Shown here piece after piece: positions 17,371 through 27,924 of a DNA stretch of 41,138 nucleotides. The notes beneath the pieces were generated by a model, which was not told the DNA's origin, made no database searches, and was given only the letters and a program-made list of their open reading frames with translations. The stretch comes from a virus: positions 1-41,138 of IMG/VR virus record IMGVR_UViG_3300043538_000019, one strand, 5' to 3'. A program made the translations under genes and the position numbers. Numbering within the stretch: position 1 is the stretch's first letter; every line of letters begins with the position of its first letter.

Positions 17371-20360
17371 TGGGCCGCGCTTCCCCCGCAATCGCCGCCT
17401 TTGATGCCGGCGAGTTCTCTCCGCAGATGGAGGGGCGGATCGATATCGAGAAGTACCCGCGCGCCGCGCACATCCAGCAGAACTTCATTGCGCTGAAGCA
17501 GGGCCCCTCCACATTCCGGCAAGGCACGGTCTATGTGCAGCCGGTCAAGAACTCAGCCAATCGCACGTGGCTTCGCCGTTTCGAGTTCTCGCAGACGCAG
17601 GCCTTTCAACTTGAGTTCGGTGATAAATATGTTCGCTTTTTCACCAATCACGGGCCTCTCCTATCCACTGGCAATCCTGCATACAACGGCGCCACGGCTT
17701 ACGTCCTGGGCAATCAGGTCGTCTCTGGCGGCATCACTTACTACTGCATCGCGCCCACCACGGGGAACGCCCCGCCCAATGCGACCTTTTGGTATCCGAT
17801 GGCGCCTTACCAGGGCAGTGCAACGGTTGCGATCTATGAGATTCCGAGCCCCTATGCGGTAGCCGATCTCACCGATTCATTGGGCGAGTTCACGCTGCAG
17901 ATCAATCAGTCTGGGGATGTGCTCTACATTGCCGGCGGTCAGGCAGGCGTAGGGCCCGCTGGCGTGGGATACCCGGCCTACACACTCACGCGTTTCGCGA
18001 ACGCCCCGCCCAATTGGCAATTCGCCCAGTACGCGCCCACCGATGGCCCCTTCTCGCCCTTCACACCGCTTACGCCAGGCGCTGAGATCGCCCTCACCGT
18101 ATCGGCCGTGATGGGCAATGCGATCACCATCAATGCGTACGGCGGCAATCTCTTCGCTGCCACAGATGTCGGGCGCCTGGTGCGCATCGGCTCGCAGTAC
18201 TTCAACAATACGCCCTGGGCGACGGCGACCGCGGTAGTGGCCGGGGCGACCTTCGTCAACAACGGCAACAACTATTTGGCGCTCAATGCCGCGACCACTG
18301 GCGGCTCGCCTCCGGTGCACACCGCTGGCGCTGCGCTCGATGGGCCAGCGGGCGTGCGATGGCTCTACACCGATTCAGGCTATGGCGTCGCCCAGATCAC
18401 CGCCTTCACGAGCGCCACCCAGGTCACAGCCAAGGTGCTGACGCGCTTCCCAGCGAACTGCGTGGGCACCGCGGCGGCGATCACGGCGATATCGCAGGCG
18501 AACCCGGCCGTTGTAACGGTAGCCAACGCCTTCACGGCTGGCGAGGCTGTTTTCATCACGGGCGTCAATGGAATGACGCAGATCAACGGCAACCCCTACA
18601 CGAATCAAACCGCAGCAGGCGCGACCGTCACCTTGGCCGGCATCGACTCGACCGGCTATTCCGCTTATGTCTCCGGCGGCACCATCATCGGCAATGCATC
18701 GGTCGAATGGCAATTGGGCGCGTGGTCGAATACCACCGAATGGCCTCGAGCGCTCGGCTTCTTCAAGGACCGATTGTTCTGGGCCGGCAAGCTCAACGTA
18801 TGGGGCTCAGTTCCCGGGCTGTACAACTCCCACACGCCGGATTTCTTCGGCCAGCAGACGACCGACTCCGCAGTCAACATCCTGGTGTCAGGGTCCGACT
18901 CCTCGAACATCGTCTGGATGATCGCCGCGAACATCCTGCTCGTCGGCACCCAGGGCGGCGAGTACGGCATCGATGCGGCCAACTTTTCTAGCTCGCCTCT
19001 GGGGCCTGCCAACATCGAATGCCTGCGGCAATCAAATTGGCGCTGCCGCCCCATCGCCCCAGAGCTCGTTGGCGTCTCGGTGCTCTACGCACAGCGAGCG
19101 GGGCGAAAGATCTTCGCGATGGACTACAACTTCTATCTGAACCGGTACGACTCGACCGATCAGAGCAAGTTCTCCTACCACGCGACCATCGGAGGCATAT
19201 CCGGCATTGCTTTTCAGCAGGAGCCATGGTCGATCCTCTGGGGCTGGCGCGCCGATGGAACCTTCCTCTCGTACACCTTCAATCGTGAGGACAATGTCAC
19301 GGCTTGGTGCCGCCACAACATGGGCAACGGTGGCATCGTCGAATCGATGTCGGTGACGCCTGCGCCAGATGGATTGCGCGATGAATTCTGGTGCATCGTC
19401 AATCGCACGATCAACGGCGCAGTCATTCGCACCGTTGAGTACCAGCCGAAGCACTACGAGGGCCCGCAAGGCGGCAACCCAGGCGATGCGCAATCTTCAG
19501 CGTGGTACGTAGATTGCGGCGTGCAATATATCGCCCCGCCATTTGGCGTGATCACCAACGTGCAGTTGAACTTGGTGCCTTCTAATCCGATCCGCTTCAT
19601 CGTGACGGTGCCGAATAACTTCGTGGCCGGTCAAACCGTCAACGTCGCCGGTGTGCTCTTCACTGGCTCGCGAAACCCCAATGGCGTCTGGCAGATCGAA
19701 TCAGCGACCGCGACTCAATTCACCTTCCGCGATCCGAATAACATCGTAGGCACCTTCGTGTATCTATCTGGTGGAACCGCGAATGTGAGCACGCCGGCTG
19801 GCACCACCAATATCTCAGGGCTGCCGCCAGTGCTGTGGAATCAGACGGTGAATATCTTCGCCGATGGCGGCAAGCAGCCACAGCAGGTGGTGTCGGCAAC
19901 TGGCACGCTCACGCTGCAGGGCACGCTCAACACCGTGACAATCGGCTTCCCGTACCAAGGGAACCTTGTGCCCATGCGCCCCGAAGGTGGGGCTGATATT
20001 GGCACTGCGCAGGGCAAGAAGAAACAGGGCTCGAATCTCGTACTGCGCCTGGTCGACTCGTTGGGCGGCCAGGTCGGGCAGCTCTCAAACATCAATTGGC
20101 AGACGCAGCTTTATCAGGACCCGCTGGGCCTCTTGACGCAAAGCGTGCAGGACTTCGAGGCGATTCGCTACAACGACACCACGACGACTTTGGATTCACC
20201 GCCGCCCATTCAGTCTGGCGATTTCCCAGTGTCTTTCCCGATGCGTCAGACGTCTGATCAGGATCAAAGCGATCTCTACATGCTGATCCAGCAGAACGAT
20301 CCGATGCCGATGACCATCGCTGGGCTTTTCCCGTCGTACAAGGTTGAGGAGCCGCAATGA
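17370..20360 (+). CDS. Tail tubular protein B-like nozzle with inserted beta domains, 996 aa
   Basis: A GTG start overlaps the adaptor stop. The N-terminus (Phe-Asp-Ala-Gly-Glu-Phe-Ser-Pro-Gln) and overall style match gp12-type nozzle proteins, which close the tail tip. At 996 aa it is longer than T7 gp12. The excess includes a CBM5/12-like module (nt about 17680-17800: Tyr-Val-Leu-Gly-Asn-Gln-Val-Val, Tyr-Tyr-Cys, Phe-Trp) and two similar beta segments (nt about 18478-18690 and 19560-19800), each with Val-x-[Val/Ile]-x-Gly-Val and a Tyr-x-Ser-Gly-Gly-Thr end, resembling FCCH domains. These probably face outward as receptor or glycan contacts. Confidence 0.78.
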   Translation: MGRASPAIAAFDAGEFSPQMEGRIDIEKYPRAAHIQQNFIALKQGPSTFRQGTVYVQPVKNSANRTWLRRFEFSQTQAFQLEFGDKYVRFFTNHGPLLSTGNPAYNGATAYVLGNQVVSGGITYYCIAPTTGNAPPNATFWYPMAPYQGSATVAIYEIPSPYAVADLTDSLGEFTLQINQSGDVLYIAGGQAGVGPAGVGYPAYTLTRFANAPPNWQFAQYAPTDGPFSPFTPLTPGAEIALTVSAVMGNAITINAYGGNLFAATDVGRLVRIGSQYFNNTPWATATAVVAGATFVNNGNNYLALNAATTGGSPPVHTAGAALDGPAGVRWLYTDSGYGVAQITAFTSATQVTAKVLTRFPANCVGTAAAITAISQANPAVVTVANAFTAGEAVFITGVNGMTQINGNPYTNQTAAGATVTLAGIDSTGYSAYVSGGTIIGNASVEWQLGAWSNTTEWPRALGFFKDRLFWAGKLNVWGSVPGLYNSHTPDFFGQQTTDSAVNILVSGSDSSNIVWMIAANILLVGTQGGEYGIDAANFSSSPLGPANIECLRQSNWRCRPIAPELVGVSVLYAQRAGRKIFAMDYNFYLNRYDSTDQSKFSYHATIGGISGIAFQQEPWSILWGWRADGTFLSYTFNREDNVTAWCRHNMGNGGIVESMSVTPAPDGLRDEFWCIVNRTINGAVIRTVEYQPKHYEGPQGGNPGDAQSSAWYVDCGVQYIAPPFGVITNVQLNLVPSNPIRFIVTVPNNFVAGQTVNVAGVLFTGSRNPNGVWQIESATATQFTFRDPNNIVGTFVYLSGGTANVSTPAGTTNISGLPPVLWNQTVNIFADGGKQPQQVVSATGTLTLQGTLNTVTIGFPYQGNLVPMRPEGGADIGTAQGKKKQGSNLVLRLVDSLGGQVGQLSNINWQTQLYQDPLGLLTQSVQDFEAIRYNDTTTTLDSPPPIQSGDFPVSFPMRQTSDQDQSDLYMLIQQNDPMPMTIAGLFPSYKVEEPQ

Positions 20361-20782
20361 TCGTCGAGCCGTTCAAGGCTTACCACGTCGACTTGCTTCG
20401 CGCGCAAGGCGTGCAGACAGCGCAGCTGCGCGAGGTCTCGTATGTGCCCGCCACCTATGCCAGTGTCCCGGCAGGACCGGCGGTGACGGTTTTTTCAGGT
20501 GATCGCATCGTGCTCTGCGGGGGGATCGCGATCAAAGCGCCGCAGCGCGGCGATTGCTGGGCGCTGCTCTCGGAGCAAGCAGGCGCGCACATGGTGTGGC
20601 TGCACTACGCAGTGAAGCGATTCATCAGCATGCAGAACTGGCGTCGCCTCGAGGCTACGGTCGAGGAGAACTTCGGCCAAGGCTGCAGGTGGGTCGAGTT
20701 ACTTGGCTTTGAGTTCGAGGGACGAATGCCCGGCTACGGACTGAACGGTGAAACTCACATGCGTTACGCGAAGGTGGGCTGA
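20357..20782 (+). CDS. GNAT-like internal virion protein (T7 gp13 type), 141 aa
   Basis: The start overlaps the nozzle stop (ATGA). The fold pattern is acetyltransferase-like: an N-terminal helix, a strand with Gly-Gly-Ile-Ala, a central Trp-Ala-Leu-Leu, then a helix and a Gly-Phe-Glu-Phe-Glu-Gly strand. Phages of this type carry a gp13-like protein here that assists assembly of the ejection apparatus. Catalytic acetyl-CoA residues are not evident, so the role is probably structural. Confidence 0.6.
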   Translation: MIVEPFKAYHVDLLRAQGVQTAQLREVSYVPATYASVPAGPAVTVFSGDRIVLCGGIAIKAPQRGDCWALLSEQAGAHMVWLHYAVKRFISMQNWRRLEATVEENFGQGCRWVELLGFEFEGRMPGYGLNGETHMRYAKVG

Positions 20783-21249
20783 TGGCATTTCTCCCGGCAA
20801 TCCTGCCGTACGTCGCCGCCGGCGCGAGCGCCATTGGCTACGCCAAGCAATCACAGGCCGCTGACTACAACGCCAAAGTTTCGACGAACGAAGCGAACAT
20901 GTCGGTCAACCAGGCGAACGCCCAGGAAGGCCAGGTGCGCCGCGCCGGCCGCGAAGCCCTTGGACGACAGGCCGCAGCCTTCGGTGCCGCGGGCGTGGGC
21001 TACGGCGGTTCATCGGAAACCGCGCTCGATCAGTCGGCGATCAACCAGGAACTCGATGCGCTCAACACGCGCAACAAGGGCACGATCACCGCCTACGGCT
21101 ACAGAACGAATGCTGGCCTAGAGCAGGATCAAGCGAAGGGCTACGGGCTCATGGCCGGGGCTGCGCTTCTAAAAGGCTTCGGCAGCAACTACACGTACAC
21201 GCCATCTCCTGCTACTCAATCCGGCGTGACCACGCCTGGCTACAGCTAA
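20782..21249 (+). CDS. DNA ejection / internal virion protein (gp14 type), 155 aa
   Basis: A hydrophobic N-terminal segment (about residues 4-20) is followed by a long Ala/Gln-rich helical body with no charged catalytic motifs. It matches gp14-like core proteins that leave the head at infection and form a pore in the outer membrane. Its position, second in the ejection block, supports this. Confidence 0.65.
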   Translation: MAFLPAILPYVAAGASAIGYAKQSQAADYNAKVSTNEANMSVNQANAQEGQVRRAGREALGRQAAAFGAAGVGYGGSSETALDQSAINQELDALNTRNKGTITAYGYRTNAGLEQDQAKGYGLMAGAALLKGFGSNYTYTPSPATQSGVTTPGYS

Positions 21250-23475
21250 ATGGCACGCGGCGCCCCAGGCGAGGAGGGCTACACACCGCAGGTCTCACCT
21301 GAAGACTTGCCGCGGAAGATCATCCCGCGCATGGAAGCGGTGCCGGTAGGCCAAGCCTTCGAGCAAGCGGCCGATGCGAGCAATCGCAAGTACCAAGCGG
21401 ACTCAGCGACCTGGGCTGGCGATCAACTCGCCGCCGCGCGCGTGCAGGCGGTCAAGAGCCTACAGGATATGAAGGCAGCGGTGCCGGCGGGCGAGGACCC
21501 TGGCGACTTCTCCACCAAATTCGCAGCCACGCTCGACAAGCAGACGGCATCGCTCACGGATAACCCCCTGGTGCAGAACAATCCGTACGCCAGCAGGATG
21601 ATCGCTCACGGCATCGGCCAGATGCGCCAGACGCTCCTTGATCACACGCAGGAGTGGGAGGCAACCCAGCGCGTGGCCTATCGCGGGAATGCGGTTGATC
21701 AGAACCTGGAAACTCAACTAGGCGTCGTCACCGCTCATCCTGAGATGAGGGGGCAAGTCGCTTCGACCCTCACTGATCAGATCAACAGCATCGGCGGCGA
21801 TCCGTCGGCGCGGTATGCGCGCATGCGAAAAGTCGATGACGCGCTTTCGATGGCGGCCGCCACTGGATTGACGCAGCAGAATCCTAGGGCCGTGCTCGAG
21901 GGACTGAATGATCCGACCAAAGCCGACGAGGCGTTTCATCGCATGACCGAGCCGCAGCTCGAGGCGTTTCGCCAAAAGGCGAACGATCAACTGACGCGCC
22001 CCGCCTTTGGGTATCTGACCGATGGCGACACCGCGAGCGCCCAGCGCTACCTCGACAAGAACAAGGACGTGATGGACCAAAAGACCGCGTACTCGCTGCA
22101 GAACGCGATCGACGCCAAAGCTCGCGAGAAGCAGAACGATGCGAAGCAGGACATTGCCGATCGCTTCCAGGACTCGATGACCGCCGCGCAGTACGGCCTT
22201 GAACACCCGGTGAGCGTTACGCGCGCTGAGATGGATGTGCTGCACCCAAAGGATGGGCAGCGCTATTGGGATTCTCTGCAGGGCATCGTCGCCGCTGGCG
22301 CGAAGGCGAAAGACTACGACAAGATGACGCCGGAGCAGGTCAATGCGGACGTCAACGGCGCGCGCCCCACACACGGCGGGCCGGAAGTGGCGAACAACAT
22401 CAAGGCCTTCGAGATCCGCGCCAACGCCGCAGATCAGTCCTTGAAGGCCCGCAGCCAGGATCCGGCGCAGTTCGTCATTGACTCCGGTACCGGATGGAAG
22501 CCATTGGACTTCAGCAAGCCAGAGGACATGCTTGGCGACTTGCGCTCGCGTGCGAACACGCAGGGCGACGTGTCGCAGCAGATCGGCGTCAACACACCGC
22601 TCCTATCGAAGGGCGAACAGAAGCAGTTCACCAGCTGGCTGGCAGCGCAACCGCCCACTGATCGTTTGGCGACTCTCACGGCATTGCGCTCGAGCATGCC
22701 TAGCGATCAGGCCTACGCCTCACTTTTGAAGCAAGTGGCACCCGGTTCGCCGCTCACCGCAGTCGCCGGCGCCACGCTCGATCGGCCGCAGAACGGCAAC
22801 GTGCCAACTTGGTACAACTCGAACTTTGCGAATTCGCCCATTACCGGCCAGCGCATCTTGGAGGGAGAGTCGATCCTGCGCGACAAGGACGAGAAGGGTA
22901 TCGCCTCCAAGTTCCCGATGCCGAAGGACGCCGATCTCATGCCGCAGTTCATATCGGCGGTGGGCGGCTCAAACAGTGACTTGTTTCGCGGCCGGCCGGA
23001 GACACTCGAATCTACCTACGCGGCATTCAAGGCCTACTACGCCGCAGAGGCGAGCCACGCCGGCGTCACCAACGGCGTCATCAATACAACCATCGCTGCT
23101 AAAGCAGCGCGCGGCGTCGTGGGGAATGCGACGCAGTACGGCACCAGCAACATCGTCGTTCCAGCCGGCATGGACCCAACCAAGTTTGAAAGCACGGTGG
23201 ATGCCGCCACGCATACGGCATTGAAGGCCAGCGGCTACTCTGACAAGGACATCGAGGCGCTCAATGGCGCGGGCCTGCGCGAGCTTGGCGACACCTTGGG
23301 CACCGGCCGTTATGTGATGATCAACGGCAACGGCGATGCGCTCAGGTCCAAGGACGGCAAGAAGCCCGTCGTCATAGACTTGAACTCGCAGTTCAGCATT
23401 CCGCACGCGCCGCTGCCGACACCCGACGTCAAGACGACCGCCGCCGGTATCGCGGGCGCAAGGATGACGGACTGA
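21250..23475 (+). CDS. Internal virion / ejection protein (gp15 type), 741 aa
   Basis: The ATG directly follows the previous stop. It is a long, mostly helical protein rich in Ala, Gln and Asp with no membrane segment, as expected for a periplasm-spanning ejection protein. I see no lytic transglycosylase motif. It overlaps the next start by one base. The call rests on size, composition and gene order. Confidence 0.65.
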   Translation: MARGAPGEEGYTPQVSPEDLPRKIIPRMEAVPVGQAFEQAADASNRKYQADSATWAGDQLAAARVQAVKSLQDMKAAVPAGEDPGDFSTKFAATLDKQTASLTDNPLVQNNPYASRMIAHGIGQMRQTLLDHTQEWEATQRVAYRGNAVDQNLETQLGVVTAHPEMRGQVASTLTDQINSIGGDPSARYARMRKVDDALSMAAATGLTQQNPRAVLEGLNDPTKADEAFHRMTEPQLEAFRQKANDQLTRPAFGYLTDGDTASAQRYLDKNKDVMDQKTAYSLQNAIDAKAREKQNDAKQDIADRFQDSMTAAQYGLEHPVSVTRAEMDVLHPKDGQRYWDSLQGIVAAGAKAKDYDKMTPEQVNADVNGARPTHGGPEVANNIKAFEIRANAADQSLKARSQDPAQFVIDSGTGWKPLDFSKPEDMLGDLRSRANTQGDVSQQIGVNTPLLSKGEQKQFTSWLAAQPPTDRLATLTALRSSMPSDQAYASLLKQVAPGSPLTAVAGATLDRPQNGNVPTWYNSNFANSPITGQRILEGESILRDKDEKGIASKFPMPKDADLMPQFISAVGGSNSDLFRGRPETLESTYAAFKAYYAAEASHAGVTNGVINTTIAAKAARGVVGNATQYGTSNIVVPAGMDPTKFESTVDAATHTALKASGYSDKDIEALNGAGLRELGDTLGTGRYVMINGNGDALRSKDGKKPVVIDLNSQFSIPHAPLPTPDVKTTAAGIAGARMTD

Positions 23476-25403
23476 TGGCACTCCAAGCGGGCCTCTACAA
23501 ATCGCAGGATCAGCAGGAGCAGGACCTCACGCAAGGCCCTGGCTGGACGATTGATGATCAAAAGCCATCGACGTTTGCCGGCGCGGCGACAGCGCTTCCG
23601 CGTGGCGTAGGGCAGGGCGTGTCGGATGGCATCTCGGTTCTCACGCATGGCATCCACGATGAACTGGTCCCGGGACTGCTCGATGCCAGCCCTTTCGGCA
23701 GGCTGCTGCGTGGCGCGGATCAGGACATCGTCAAGGCGGTGCCAGGCGTGCAGACCGCGGAGTCCGCAAACGAGGCGCTCGAGGCGATGTCCCAGCGCAC
23801 GCGCGAGTTCTCAAAGTCTCTCGTAGGCGATCCGCGCACTACCGGCGCCGGCGCGAACGTCATTCAGGGCTTCAGCAAGGCGGTCACCGAGTTCACCTTA
23901 GGTAGCTTAGCTGGCGGCCCGACATCGGGCGCCGCGCTCCTTGGCGCAACCGAAGGCTACGCGCACTACGGCGATCTGCTTGATCTGGGCGTCGATGAAG
24001 AGACCGCGCAAAGGTCTGGCATCACCACGGCGATGTTGAGCGGTGGCGCCGCGTACTTGCCCATGGCGATGCCCGCCAAATGGCTTGCGGGGCTCTCAGC
24101 GCCGACCGCGCTCGCAGCGCAGGCTGGTACGGGCGCTGTGATCAACACAGGTTTCGGCGCGGTCGACCGGTACGCTGGGGCGAAGATCCTGCGCAACGCT
24201 GGCTACGACGCCATGGCCGACCAACAGGAGGTTTGGGATAAGACCAATGTCCTCGCCGATGCTATCTCCGGGGCCTTCTTCGGCGCGCATTCAGGATGGC
24301 ACGGCATCAAGGAATTGGCCGGCAAGCGCATCGATCCGTCGCTGCTCGATGCCGCCAAGGTGGTGCAGGACCGCCAAGCCGTCATCAATGCGGCCCCAGG
24401 GCTTCCAGTCGATGCGAAGTCCGCAGCCGTGCACCGGCAGGCCATGCAGACCGCCGTTGGAGACATGCTCACCGGCAAGCCCGTTGACCTCTCCGAGATC
24501 GACGCCGCTGGCGCGGTCTTCGCGCGCGGCGAGGTGGATGAATCGGCCGCTACCAAGATCATTCGCGATGCGTTCGTGAAGTCCGGCGTCCTAGATGAGC
24601 GCGATTTCAACGACAGCCTGGACTTCCTCAAGGGCGAGAAAGAGGAACCGGTGTCACAGAAACCGGCCGAAGCGCCTGAATCTGTCAAACCTGAAGCCGC
24701 TGCGGAACCTGAAGGGTATGATGTCGGCGAAGGAGAACTGACAGATGAGCAACGAAAAGCATTCGGCCTTGGACCGCTGGAAGAAGGCGCTGAAGCATCC
24801 GAGCCTGGGAGCGGGGGACAAGAAGTACATCCAGGATCAGATCGATCTGCTGAAGGCATCAAGGTCTACCGGGGTAGCCGCGCGCCGCTCACCGACGAGC
24901 ACTTCAGCGACGACGCACTAGGTTTCGCTTCCGACAAGTCTGCTGCGCGCCTCGGCGTCTTCTTCACGGCTGACGCAGCCGAGGCGGCCGATCACGGCGA
25001 TGTCTCCGCCCACGATCTTTATCTTAAAAACCCGAAAGTACTCAAGACGGGCGAACTGCCAGCCTTCGACTCACCCGCTGAGGCCATTGCCTACCGCGAG
25101 AAGCTGAAGGCTGAAGGCCACGACGGTATCGTCCTCGACTACCGCAACGTCGGCGGAAATCTCCACTACGTAGCCTTCTCTCCGGATGCGCTGAAATCCG
25201 CCAGTCAGCTCGCGCGCCAGCGCGTCAAGACTACCGGCGGACCACTGGCAGAAAGACCCAACCTGCAAATCGCCGATGAGCACGGCGCACCGACCTCCGC
25301 TGCTGACGCGCTCGATAAAGCTACCGCCGAGGAAGCCCAGGCCAACAAAGAAGCCGATCCCATGATGGAAGCGGCCGTGAAGTGCGAGATGCGCCATGCG
25401 TGA
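23475..25403 (+). CDS. Ejection protein with ADP-ribosyltransferase-like C-terminal domain, 642 aa
   Basis: Residues 1-280 are Gly/Ala-rich with hydrophobic stretches near 140-165 and 190-225. An acidic Glu/Pro-rich linker follows at about 390-465. Residues about 467-575 read like an ART-PolyVal domain: Val-Tyr-Arg-Gly-Ser, then Leu-Gly-Val-Phe-Phe-Thr-Ala-Asp-Ala, Ala-x-x-His-Gly, then Gly-His-Asp-Gly-Ile-Val-Leu and Tyr-Val-Ala-Phe-Ser-Pro-Asp-Ala-Leu-Lys-Ser. If active, it could modify host proteins as soon as it is injected with the DNA. The final catalytic acidic residue is not clear, so activity is unproven. Confidence 0.65.
   Translation: MALQAGLYKSQDQQEQDLTQGPGWTIDDQKPSTFAGAATALPRGVGQGVSDGISVLTHGIHDELVPGLLDASPFGRLLRGADQDIVKAVPGVQTAESANEALEAMSQRTREFSKSLVGDPRTTGAGANVIQGFSKAVTEFTLGSLAGGPTSGAALLGATEGYAHYGDLLDLGVDEETAQRSGITTAMLSGGAAYLPMAMPAKWLAGLSAPTALAAQAGTGAVINTGFGAVDRYAGAKILRNAGYDAMADQQEVWDKTNVLADAISGAFFGAHSGWHGIKELAGKRIDPSLLDAAKVVQDRQAVINAAPGLPVDAKSAAVHRQAMQTAVGDMLTGKPVDLSEIDAAGAVFARGEVDESAATKIIRDAFVKSGVLDERDFNDSLDFLKGEKEEPVSQKPAEAPESVKPEAAAEPEGYDVGEGELTDEQRKAFGLGPLEEGAEASEPGSGGQEVHPGSDRSAEGIKVYRGSRAPLTDEHFSDDALGFASDKSAARLGVFFTADAAEAADHGDVSAHDLYLKNPKVLKTGELPAFDSPAEAIAYREKLKAEGHDGIVLDYRNVGGNLHYVAFSPDALKSASQLARQRVKTTGGPLAERPNLQIADEHGAPTSAADALDKATAEEAQANKEADPMMEAAVKCEMRHA
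24745..24921 (+). CDS. Out-of-frame nested ORF in the linker of the ejection protein
   Basis: This 58-codon frame starts at an ATG inside the ejection protein gene, where the host frame encodes a featureless linker. Its first 40 residues look like a real amphipathic helical protein (Leu-Asp-Arg-Trp-Lys-Lys-Ala-Leu, then Tyr-Ile-Gln-Asp-Gln-Ile-Asp-Leu-Leu-Lys). The remainder looks like frame shadow. AAGGAG lies about 10 bases upstream. It may be a nested gene, an old frame before compensating indels, or chance. Confidence 0.3.
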   Translation: MSNEKHSALDRWKKALKHPSLGAGDKKYIQDQIDLLKASRSTGVAARRSPTSTSATTH

Positions 25404-27924
25404 GGACTGCTTAGAAGCGGTGTCCACGATGCTCGGTCGCCAGTTGATGGCATCCCAGGGCACGAAGATCGAGGAGCGCGTCAAGACCGCCATGAAGGTG
25501 CTCGCGCGTGAGAATCGGGATGAGTGGCGCGCGAAGAGCTACACCGACAGGCTGATGAATGCCGCCGCCAAGGCCGCCACCGACATGAAGGAGGAGGCCG
25601 CACAGAAGCGCGCGAACATCGAGAAGACCGTTGCCATCCATGATCGCATCGAGAACTTCCTAGCCACCCAGCCCAACGCCAAGGTGGGCGATGGCCTCAA
25701 AGCCGTGTCCAAGCTTTTGGACTTCGACACCCGCGGCGGCGGCTATACCTCGGTGCAGTCATGGGCGAACGCGGTGCGCAACGAGGCCTTCGGCAATCTC
25801 ATCAAGACGTGGGAAGCCATCCCGGGACACTTCTTCGGCCTGTTCGAGGACAAGAAGGGCGTCGCTGATCTCTGGAAGGAAATCCACGGCGAGGAGTCCG
25901 GCAACAAGGTCGCGAAGCAGGGCGCGGATGCGTGGCGCAGGACCACCGAGGAACTGCGCCAGCGTTTCAATGACGCCGGCGGGCATGTCGGCAAGCTCGA
26001 GGATTGGAGCAAGCCGCAGCATCACAGTCAGATGCGCGTCGCGGCGGCCGGTGTTGAGAAGTGGATCGCCGACATTCTCCCTAAGCTCGATCGCGAGAAG
26101 TACGTCACCGGCGATGGCCGGCGGATGAGTGATGAGCAGATGCAGCAGTTCCTGGGCCACGCCTATGACTCGATCATCACCGATGGCCACAACGGCACCG
26201 AGCCTGGCAGTGTCACGGGCGCCGGCGTCACCGCGAATAAGAACGCCGCGCACCGGCAGATCTTCTTCAAGGACTCGGACGCATCCGCGCAGTACAACGC
26301 GCTCTACGGCGAGCGCTCGCTCAATAACCTGCTCTCCGGCCACGTCTCGCGCATGGCCAGAGATATCGCACTGACGGAGCGGCTCGGACCCAACGCTGCG
26401 GCGACGCTCAAGTACTTCAACGACCGCACGCTGCAGGACGAGATACGCCAGGCGCCAACCAAGATTGCCTCCTTGCGCAAGAAGGCAATCTACAACGAGC
26501 GGTTGATGGATGCGGTCTCCGGCAAGGATCAGGTGGTTGATCAGCGCGTCGCGAATGCCTTCCAGACGTTTCGCAATTGGATGACCGCCAGCAAGCTCGG
26601 CAAGGTCGTGATCACGGCGCTCTCCGATGAGGCCGGCATGTTCTCGACCGCCATCGCGAATAAGGTGCCGTACTCATCGGCGCTGATCCAAGAACTTAAA
26701 CGCGTGTTGCCCGGTGAATCACGGCGGTTCGCCGAACATTCAGGCCTCGGCATAGACGCGATGATGGGGCACATGAATCGCTTTGCGCAGGAGGAGTTCG
26801 GCGCCTCATTCAGCGGGAAGATGGCCTCGAGCGTGATGCGCCTCTCCGGCGCCGAACGCATGTGGGCCGCGCGCCGGCAGGGCATGGGCACGGTGCTGAT
26901 GTCCTCGATCGGTAAGCTCACCCGCTCGATCGAGCACGTCGAGGATCTGTCCAAGGAGGATCACGGTGTGCTCGCTGATAAGGGCGTCACCGATACCAAT
27001 TGGCAGGTGTGGCGGCGCGCTGAGCCGGAAGATTGGGGCGGCTCATCCAAAGTGCTCACGCCGAAATCCATCTGGGCGATCCCGGATGAAAAGCTGGCCG
27101 ACTTGGGCGACCCGCGCGCGCTCAAGCGCGAGGCCTCCACGCAGCTACTCGCGCATACCCTCGAGGAAGCCGGCATGGGCGCGATGGACACCGGTCCACG
27201 CCAACGCGTCGCGGTTAACTTAGGCACCCAGCGAGGCACGTATGGTGGGGAGATCTGGCGCTCGATGAACCTGTTTCGCGGCTTCGCCTTCGCTATGATG
27301 ATGAAGCACTGGGCGCGCGCGGCTGATCAGCCGGGCTTTGGCAAGGTCAAGTACCTGGCGCCCCTATTCGTATACGGGACCGTCATGGCGGCCGTCGGCA
27401 ATCAGATCCGCAATCTCATCGCGGGCGCGGATCCTGAGAACATGAACCCGAAGCAGAACTTGGCATTCTGGGGCAAGGCGCTGTTGCGCGGCGGAGGCCT
27501 GGGTTTCTTCGGCGACTTCCTGCAGAACGAAACGACCGAGCACGACACCTCGCTCGCCGCGGCGCTTGGCGGCCCGGCAGCCACCACGGCCGAGGATCTG
27601 CTGCAGCTCACGCATGGCGCGTTCTTTCAATCCAAGCGCGGCCAGCAAGTGGATGAGAAGGCGAAGCTCATCCGCTTCGTGAAGGGCAACATACCGCTAC
27701 TCAACATGTGGTACACGCAGGCCGCGGCAGACCATCTCATCTGGAATCACCTGCAGGAGGCCGCCAATCCCGGTTATCTCTCGCGCATGGTGGCGAAGCA
27801 GGAAGCGAACTTCGGCAAGACCTACTACTGGAATCCGGAATCAGCTACTCCGGGGCGGGCTCCAAATCTCGCCAAGGCTGTTGGCGCCAATCAAAACGCG
27901 AACTTCGCAGGTAACACCCCATGA
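25396..27924 (+). CDS. Large internal virion / ejection protein (gp16 type), 842 aa
   Basis: The ATG overlaps the previous gene by eight bases. It is the largest ejection-block protein, mostly helical, with hydrophobic stretches near its C-terminal third (for example Leu-Ala-Pro-Leu-Phe-Val-Tyr-Gly and Gly-Gly-Gly-Leu-Gly-Phe-Phe-Gly) that could cross the inner membrane. T7 gp16-like proteins take this place and carry DNA into the cytoplasm. No N-terminal transglycosylase is visible here. The ATGA overlap couples it to the tailspike. Confidence 0.65.
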   Translation: MREDCLEAVSTMLGRQLMASQGTKIEERVKTAMKVLARENRDEWRAKSYTDRLMNAAAKAATDMKEEAAQKRANIEKTVAIHDRIENFLATQPNAKVGDGLKAVSKLLDFDTRGGGYTSVQSWANAVRNEAFGNLIKTWEAIPGHFFGLFEDKKGVADLWKEIHGEESGNKVAKQGADAWRRTTEELRQRFNDAGGHVGKLEDWSKPQHHSQMRVAAAGVEKWIADILPKLDREKYVTGDGRRMSDEQMQQFLGHAYDSIITDGHNGTEPGSVTGAGVTANKNAAHRQIFFKDSDASAQYNALYGERSLNNLLSGHVSRMARDIALTERLGPNAAATLKYFNDRTLQDEIRQAPTKIASLRKKAIYNERLMDAVSGKDQVVDQRVANAFQTFRNWMTASKLGKVVITALSDEAGMFSTAIANKVPYSSALIQELKRVLPGESRRFAEHSGLGIDAMMGHMNRFAQEEFGASFSGKMASSVMRLSGAERMWAARRQGMGTVLMSSIGKLTRSIEHVEDLSKEDHGVLADKGVTDTNWQVWRRAEPEDWGGSSKVLTPKSIWAIPDEKLADLGDPRALKREASTQLLAHTLEEAGMGAMDTGPRQRVAVNLGTQRGTYGGEIWRSMNLFRGFAFAMMMKHWARAADQPGFGKVKYLAPLFVYGTVMAAVGNQIRNLIAGADPENMNPKQNLAFWGKALLRGGGLGFFGDFLQNETTEHDTSLAAALGGPAATTAEDLLQLTHGAFFQSKRGQQVDEKAKLIRFVKGNIPLLNMWYTQAAADHLIWNHLQEAANPGYLSRMVAKQEANFGKTYYWNPESATPGRAPNLAKAVGANQNANFAGNTP

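Follow-up and report, generated by a model that had tools for sequence, protein, structure and literature searches.

The stretch of DNA analysed here, which we refer to as the window, is one complete virus record of 41,138 bases and, because a terminase, a head-tail adaptor, a major head protein, a tailspike-like protein, an endolysin, and an integrase are encoded among its selected open reading frames (ORFs), its source is most likely a temperate podovirus. Three consecutive genes for proteins of the epsilon15 gp15, gp16 and gp17 types are chained in the window, each stop overlapping the next start (Table 1). The 842-aa product of the last of these resembles epsilon15 gp17 along its full length (E 1e-95), as well as a gp17-like protein of BcepC6B (E 6e-103). 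The middle gene, which carries an ADP-ribosyltransferase (ART)-like domain, is open and in frame throughout its 642 codons, with coding-like GC content at third positions (GC3). Profile phrog_1145 matches residues 11-360 of its product (E 1e-39), and tblastn with this protein retrieved epsilon15 gp16 and homologues in phiV10, SPN1S-like, and BcepC6B-like podoviruses. A reading of the sequence only had assigned this protein to an ejection block, and both its gp15- and gp17-type neighbours and the gp16-type homology of its N-terminal module back that setting. The packaging and injection device of epsilon15 is reported to include gp15 and gp17/16 (PMC12391199); a review table that names gp11-gp13 as the epsilon15 ejection proteins was set aside, as the sizes disagree with record L005.

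Table 1. Genes of the ejection block and parts of the gp16-type protein, in window positions.
Feature	Coordinates	Strand	Size, evidence and remarks
Two small internal-virion-protein-like ORFs, start of the block	20357..21249	+	141 and 155 aa; phrog_4177/phrog_308, phrog_418
gp15-type protein, epsilon15 kind, upstream partner	21250..23475	+	741 aa; epsilon15 gp15 E 4e-18; phrog_992
gp16-type ejection protein, epsilon15 kind, carrying the ART-like domain	23475..25403	+	642 aa; phrog_1145, tblastn
N-terminal module, conserved	23475..24554	+	residues 1-360; predicted all-helical, Ala/Gly-rich
Linker, acidic, Pro/Glu/Gly-rich	24615..24857	+	residues 381-461; predicted disordered
ART-like domain	24858..25208	+	residues 462-578; profile bounds; R466, H507, D550, H564
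C-terminal tail, helix, conserved	25251..25400	+	residues 593-642; ERPNLQI...AAVKCEMRHA; present in nearly all intact relatives
gp17-type virion protein, epsilon15 kind, downstream	25396..27924	+	842 aa; phrog_684 E 2.4e-230

No segment of the gp16-type protein rose above the hydropathy threshold for a transmembrane helix, and its N-terminal module has no classical transmembrane segment. An AlphaFold2 model of the full 642-aa chain was poor (pLDDT 59.6), so that the exposure of the ART-like domain within the protein is not readable from it; a fold search with this model, which is too poor for such a search to be meaningful, returned no PDB match at E 0.001. As a separate observation on the block, the epsilon15 gene at a position like that of the first small ORF (20357-20782) is gp13, annotated as a GNAT acetyltransferase, and it is possible that a second virion enzyme is encoded there. 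A PHROGs search of selected window ORFs brought up no gene for an antitoxin, macro, or ADP-ribose hydrolase protein.

The sequence-only reading had placed an ART-like domain in the C-terminal part of the protein, at 24870-25220, which is close to the profile bounds obtained here. The four motifs on which that proposal relied were each found, and in the order it gave: VYRGS at residues 464-468 (24864-24878), VFFTAD at 495-500 (24957-24974), GHDGI at 548-552 (25116-25130), and FSPDALKS at 568-575 (25176-25199). The profile search it suggested gave a divided answer. Pfam model PF18760 (ART-PolyVal) matched the domain with E 7.8e-4 and 20.7 bits, below its cut-off of 31.2 bits; an independent profile built from 15 ART-PolyVal domains of other viral loci, from which both the window and its closest relative (L002) had been excluded, scored the window protein at 39.8 bits, against 9.7 bits for the best of 5000 shuffled versions of the same protein. 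Viral contigs searched with the ART domain alone yielded no confirmed relative, an initial profile scan of genome contigs with the alignment of the whole protein found none either, and a sequence-profile search of solved structures gave nothing significant, the best match being PARP13 (E 0.7).

Structure prediction points in the same direction as the independent profile. Based on a 17-sequence alignment, the AlphaFold2 model of the ART domain reached a pLDDT of 80.6 and a pTM of 0.73, and places R466 in strand 1 and D550 just ahead of strand 5, while strand 6 begins at H564. When the model was compared to the PDB with Foldseek, all the top rows belonged to the ART superfamily (tankyrase, the catalytic domain of diphtheria toxin, the RES toxin, and the ParT toxin), with a best E of 8e-3 and a probability of 0.99, a result that is consistent with an ART fold for the modelled domain, although not overwhelming. 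Viral structure models gave 34 matches at E < 1e-3, many of them labelled ART-PolyVal. The best VIA alignment was to residues 1418-1599 of a pre-ejectosome chain of cyanophage A4 (9k3a_B; Z 8.2, rmsd 2.6, 103 residues), followed by PARPs with Z of about 7, values of 7-8 being middling according to the tool's own warning. Profile and model together show that residues 462-578 very probably have an ART fold, and the earlier proposal of such a domain is upheld; had the fold been absent from the predicted structure, that proposal would have been in trouble, and ARTs are instead its top matches. That the match is a false positive due to low complexity or composition, as the Pfam score below the gathering cut-off and a weak SPOR match overlapping the same region might suggest, is highly improbable in light of the shuffle control, the fairly confident model with ARTs as its top PDB matches, and the 34 viral models.

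Whether this domain is still an enzyme is a different matter. Iyer et al. defined the Tox-ART-HYD2 clade by a His in strand 1, a Tyr in strand 2, and an Asp in strand 5 (PMC5512222). We compared these positions, and the one preceding strand 6, over 58 distinct ART-PolyVal copies, 56-58 of which could be scored per position. The strand 1 residue is His in 50 of 56 copies and Arg in the other six, L002 included; the window protein has R466 and so lacks the defining His. At the strand 2 position, Tyr prevails (38/57), followed by Phe (9/57) and His (2/57), and here the defining Tyr is replaced by H507. The aspartate of the DG pair, present in 56 of the 58 copies, is retained as D550, which in our reading corresponds to the published strand 5 Asp of the clade. 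Residues at the position ahead of strand 6 vary (21 E, 8 H, 7 S, 6 T, and 5 Q), H564 being the one in the window protein. The same four positions read R, Y, D, and E in L002. The Glu of the EYVAF motif, presumably comparable to E988 of PARP1, had at one point led us to take its loss as a loss of catalysis; the variability of this position over the 58 copies indicates that it is not the defining residue of the family, and the argument was dropped. The sequence-only reading had named loss of the NAD-binding residues across homologues as evidence against it, and such a loss is partly seen: in the window protein D550 is kept and the His and Tyr of the H-Y-D set are replaced, although each replacement is seen in other copies.

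These residues leave room for a pseudoenzyme, in which the ART fold would be kept and NAD chemistry lost, the domain serving as a binding or structural module of the ejection machine. Such an outcome is a serious possibility, if one falling clearly short of an even chance. It is favoured by the Arg where 50 of 56 copies have His, by the His where Tyr or Phe is usual, by H564 at a position where 21 of 56 copies have Glu, and by the solved A4 pre-ejectosome chain, which likewise combines an ART-like fold with a diverged sequence unseen by Pfam. Every one of these substitutions, however, is found again elsewhere (Arg in strand 1 in six copies, among which L002 keeps both Y and E, and His in eight copies in place of the Glu), D550 is retained, and the reading frame is unbroken and has a coding-like GC3. 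Because of the changes to R466 and H507 catalysis is uncertain, and we would put it close to, though still under, an even chance that the domain is catalytic. On its residues, it is a non-canonical member of the clade, whose activity should not be assumed.

Nearly all intact gp16-type relatives keep the N-terminal module and a C-terminal tail with a terminal Cys motif (VAAACF/AAVKC), whatever payload lies in between. ART domains are confined to two of the 98 distinct gp16-type homologues, namely the window protein and L002, whose ART scores 36.6 bits and hence above the PF18760 cut-off. Two phages from the same metagenome, with about 90% identity in the surroundings of the slot, are distinguished by the presence or absence of the ART; the one devoid of it, L003, has only a short Pro/Glu linker in the slot, with DNA identity of about 90% on both sides, and the partial L126 shows the same linker end as L003. 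The slot between the conserved helical N-terminal module and the C-terminal tail is exchangeable, and the ART was gained or lost between near-identical phages. The ART-domain tree has long branches and an unresolved topology, so that the ARTs of the window and L002 may or may not go back to one insertion event.

Other relatives fill the slot differently. The payload encountered most often is SLT, which 8 of 24 representatives carry. The gp16-type protein of L127 (3088-5001) has a GGDEF domain there (E 2.2e-10), which would mean that an ejected protein bears a cyclic-di-nucleotide enzyme, and L134 matches GGDEF more weakly, short of the cut-off. Two gp16-type proteins of about 1240 aa, L129:4007-7714 and L143:3512-7228, each combine a Zeta-toxin kinase with a ddrB-ParB domain, the order of the two domains being opposite in L129 and L143, and the gp16-type protein of L071 (3794-6490) carries SLT and a PBECR1-like nuclease ahead of the conserved tail, the latter at 26.3 bits, just short of the 27.6 cut-off. 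HExxH motifs (HHEALHLEQRHYP; HEILHH.ERM) occur in the slots of L057:3923-5983, L065, L192, L200, and L201; Pfam recognises nothing in these regions of L057 and the L065 group, which are candidate metallopeptidases judging from the motif. The epsilon15-type gp16 proteins (L016, L017, and relatives) come in 634-aa and 521-aa forms, the difference being a middle insert of about 113 residues. ART, PBECR1, metallopeptidase, lysozyme, ParB, and GGDEF domains are all reported from polyvalent proteins by Iyer et al. (PMC5512222), and the repertoire of the slot overlaps that repertoire. If a polyvalent protein is taken as a single chain that unites at least two domains with disparate biochemical activities, L071, L129, and L143 carry two such payloads, and the window protein a single recognised one on a putative delivery chassis.

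Among known systems, ART-PolyVal (PF18760/Tox-ART-HYD2) shares with the window domain the whole-domain profile match, the order of strands and motifs, the DG Asp, and the F-x-P-x-x-x-K-S end; the window domain differs in its score below the cut-off, in the His to Arg and Tyr to His changes at two defining positions, and in residing on a 642-aa ejection protein, whereas most other copies found here are on multidomain proteins of 1000-3600 residues. T4 Alt is comparable in its proposed role, as a head-packaged ART delivered with the DNA (PMC5512222); it is placed in the R-S-E Alt/VIP2 clade, however, and in its myovirus it constitutes a head protein by itself. The A4 (Anabaena phage A-4L) chain 9k3a_B also belongs to a podoviral ejectosome, and an ART-like fold lies towards its C-terminus, although it is 1717 aa long and of another ejection protein family. 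Based on residue numbering, this chain seems to be ORF27 of A-4L, a protein of 1717 aa with LYHGT at residues 1424-1428, followed by GTYFS; BLASTP found no similarity between ORF27 and the window ART domain. ORF27 itself (L111:20119-25269, minus strand) is annotated as a tail protein, and has no Pfam match at residues ~1418-1599. The gp16 proteins of epsilon15 and BcepC6B share with the window protein the N-terminal module, the C-terminal tail, and the gene order, but epsilon15 gp16 (L016) has no payload recognised by Pfam, and in the BcepC6B type the middle region contains an SLT domain.

We consider it reasonably probable that the window gene is the middle member of an epsilon15-type gp15-gp16-gp17 ejection block, and that its ART is an interchangeable payload released into the cell. 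That the 642-aa protein is ejected at all is, on homology and synteny, a proposition we hold with good confidence. By analogy with its homologues, the N-terminal module and C-terminal tail would form a chassis that assembles in the core inside the head and is ejected, with the ART payload between module and tail on the predicted disordered acidic linker, and linker and payload would travel with the chassis. The payload would then most likely enter the cell with the genome and reach the cytoplasm, where it could modify a host macromolecule in an NAD-dependent manner, or bind NAD or ADP-ribose. Action on host targets ahead of any phage transcription, as raised by the sequence-only reading, is a conjecture. 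Against the preferred reading stand the rarity of the ART (2 of 98 homologues), the two changed H-Y-D residues, and the lack of a segment above the transmembrane hydropathy threshold. Several payloads of relatives point to cytoplasmic delivery, since they would need nucleotides or nucleic acids; the SLT payloads of relatives, on the other hand, make action in the periplasm possible too, and the payload could remain there, as does the N-terminal domain of T7 gp16 (PMC8954989).

It could also be argued that the gp16-type protein is an ordinary structural part of a periplasmic tunnel, with an ART that acts in the envelope or nowhere and a slot that is simply tolerant of insertions. The prevalence of SLT, a peptidoglycan enzyme, indicates that some payloads do work in the periplasm, and L003-type members exist without any payload. 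We regard this explanation as unlikely, however, as GGDEF, Zeta-toxin kinase, ParB, and PBECR1 domains would depend on nucleotides or nucleic acids of the cytoplasm, where NAD too is located. Extending the preferred reading of a released payload to the whole family, we tentatively propose, at a little under an even chance, that gp16-type proteins of the epsilon15/BcepC6B kind could be a general delivery chassis, in which the fixed N-terminal module and C-terminal tail provide the signals for packaging and ejection, and the bay between them, whose content is exchangeable, brings effectors into the host cell. Going by domain and motif matches, its cargo might include ART-like, GGDEF, PBECR1, Zeta kinase plus ParB, candidate protease, and muramidase domains, and the window ART would be one instance, possibly with an altered NAD chemistry (R-H-D).

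Descriptions of injected effector domains mostly concern large multidomain polyvalent proteins, MuF fusions, and T4 Alt. The injected ART of T4 Alt, ARTs within polyvalent proteins, and ARTs on N4-type virion RNA polymerases are already known (PMC5512222, PMC9503650), and in a published survey just 3% of podoviruses had ARTs (PMC9503650). Our limited search of searchable open-access text came across no account in which an epsilon15 gp16-type ejection protein bears an ART or exchangeable effectors. We read the locus as encoding a podoviral ejection protein with interchangeable payloads drawn from the polyvalent-protein repertoire. If such a compact ejection protein with exchangeable payloads is indeed what these phages carry, its fixed flanks would be testable delivery signals, and the two phages that share about 90% identity around the slot, one having the ART and the other lacking it, would offer a natural comparison for the effect of an injected ART-like domain.
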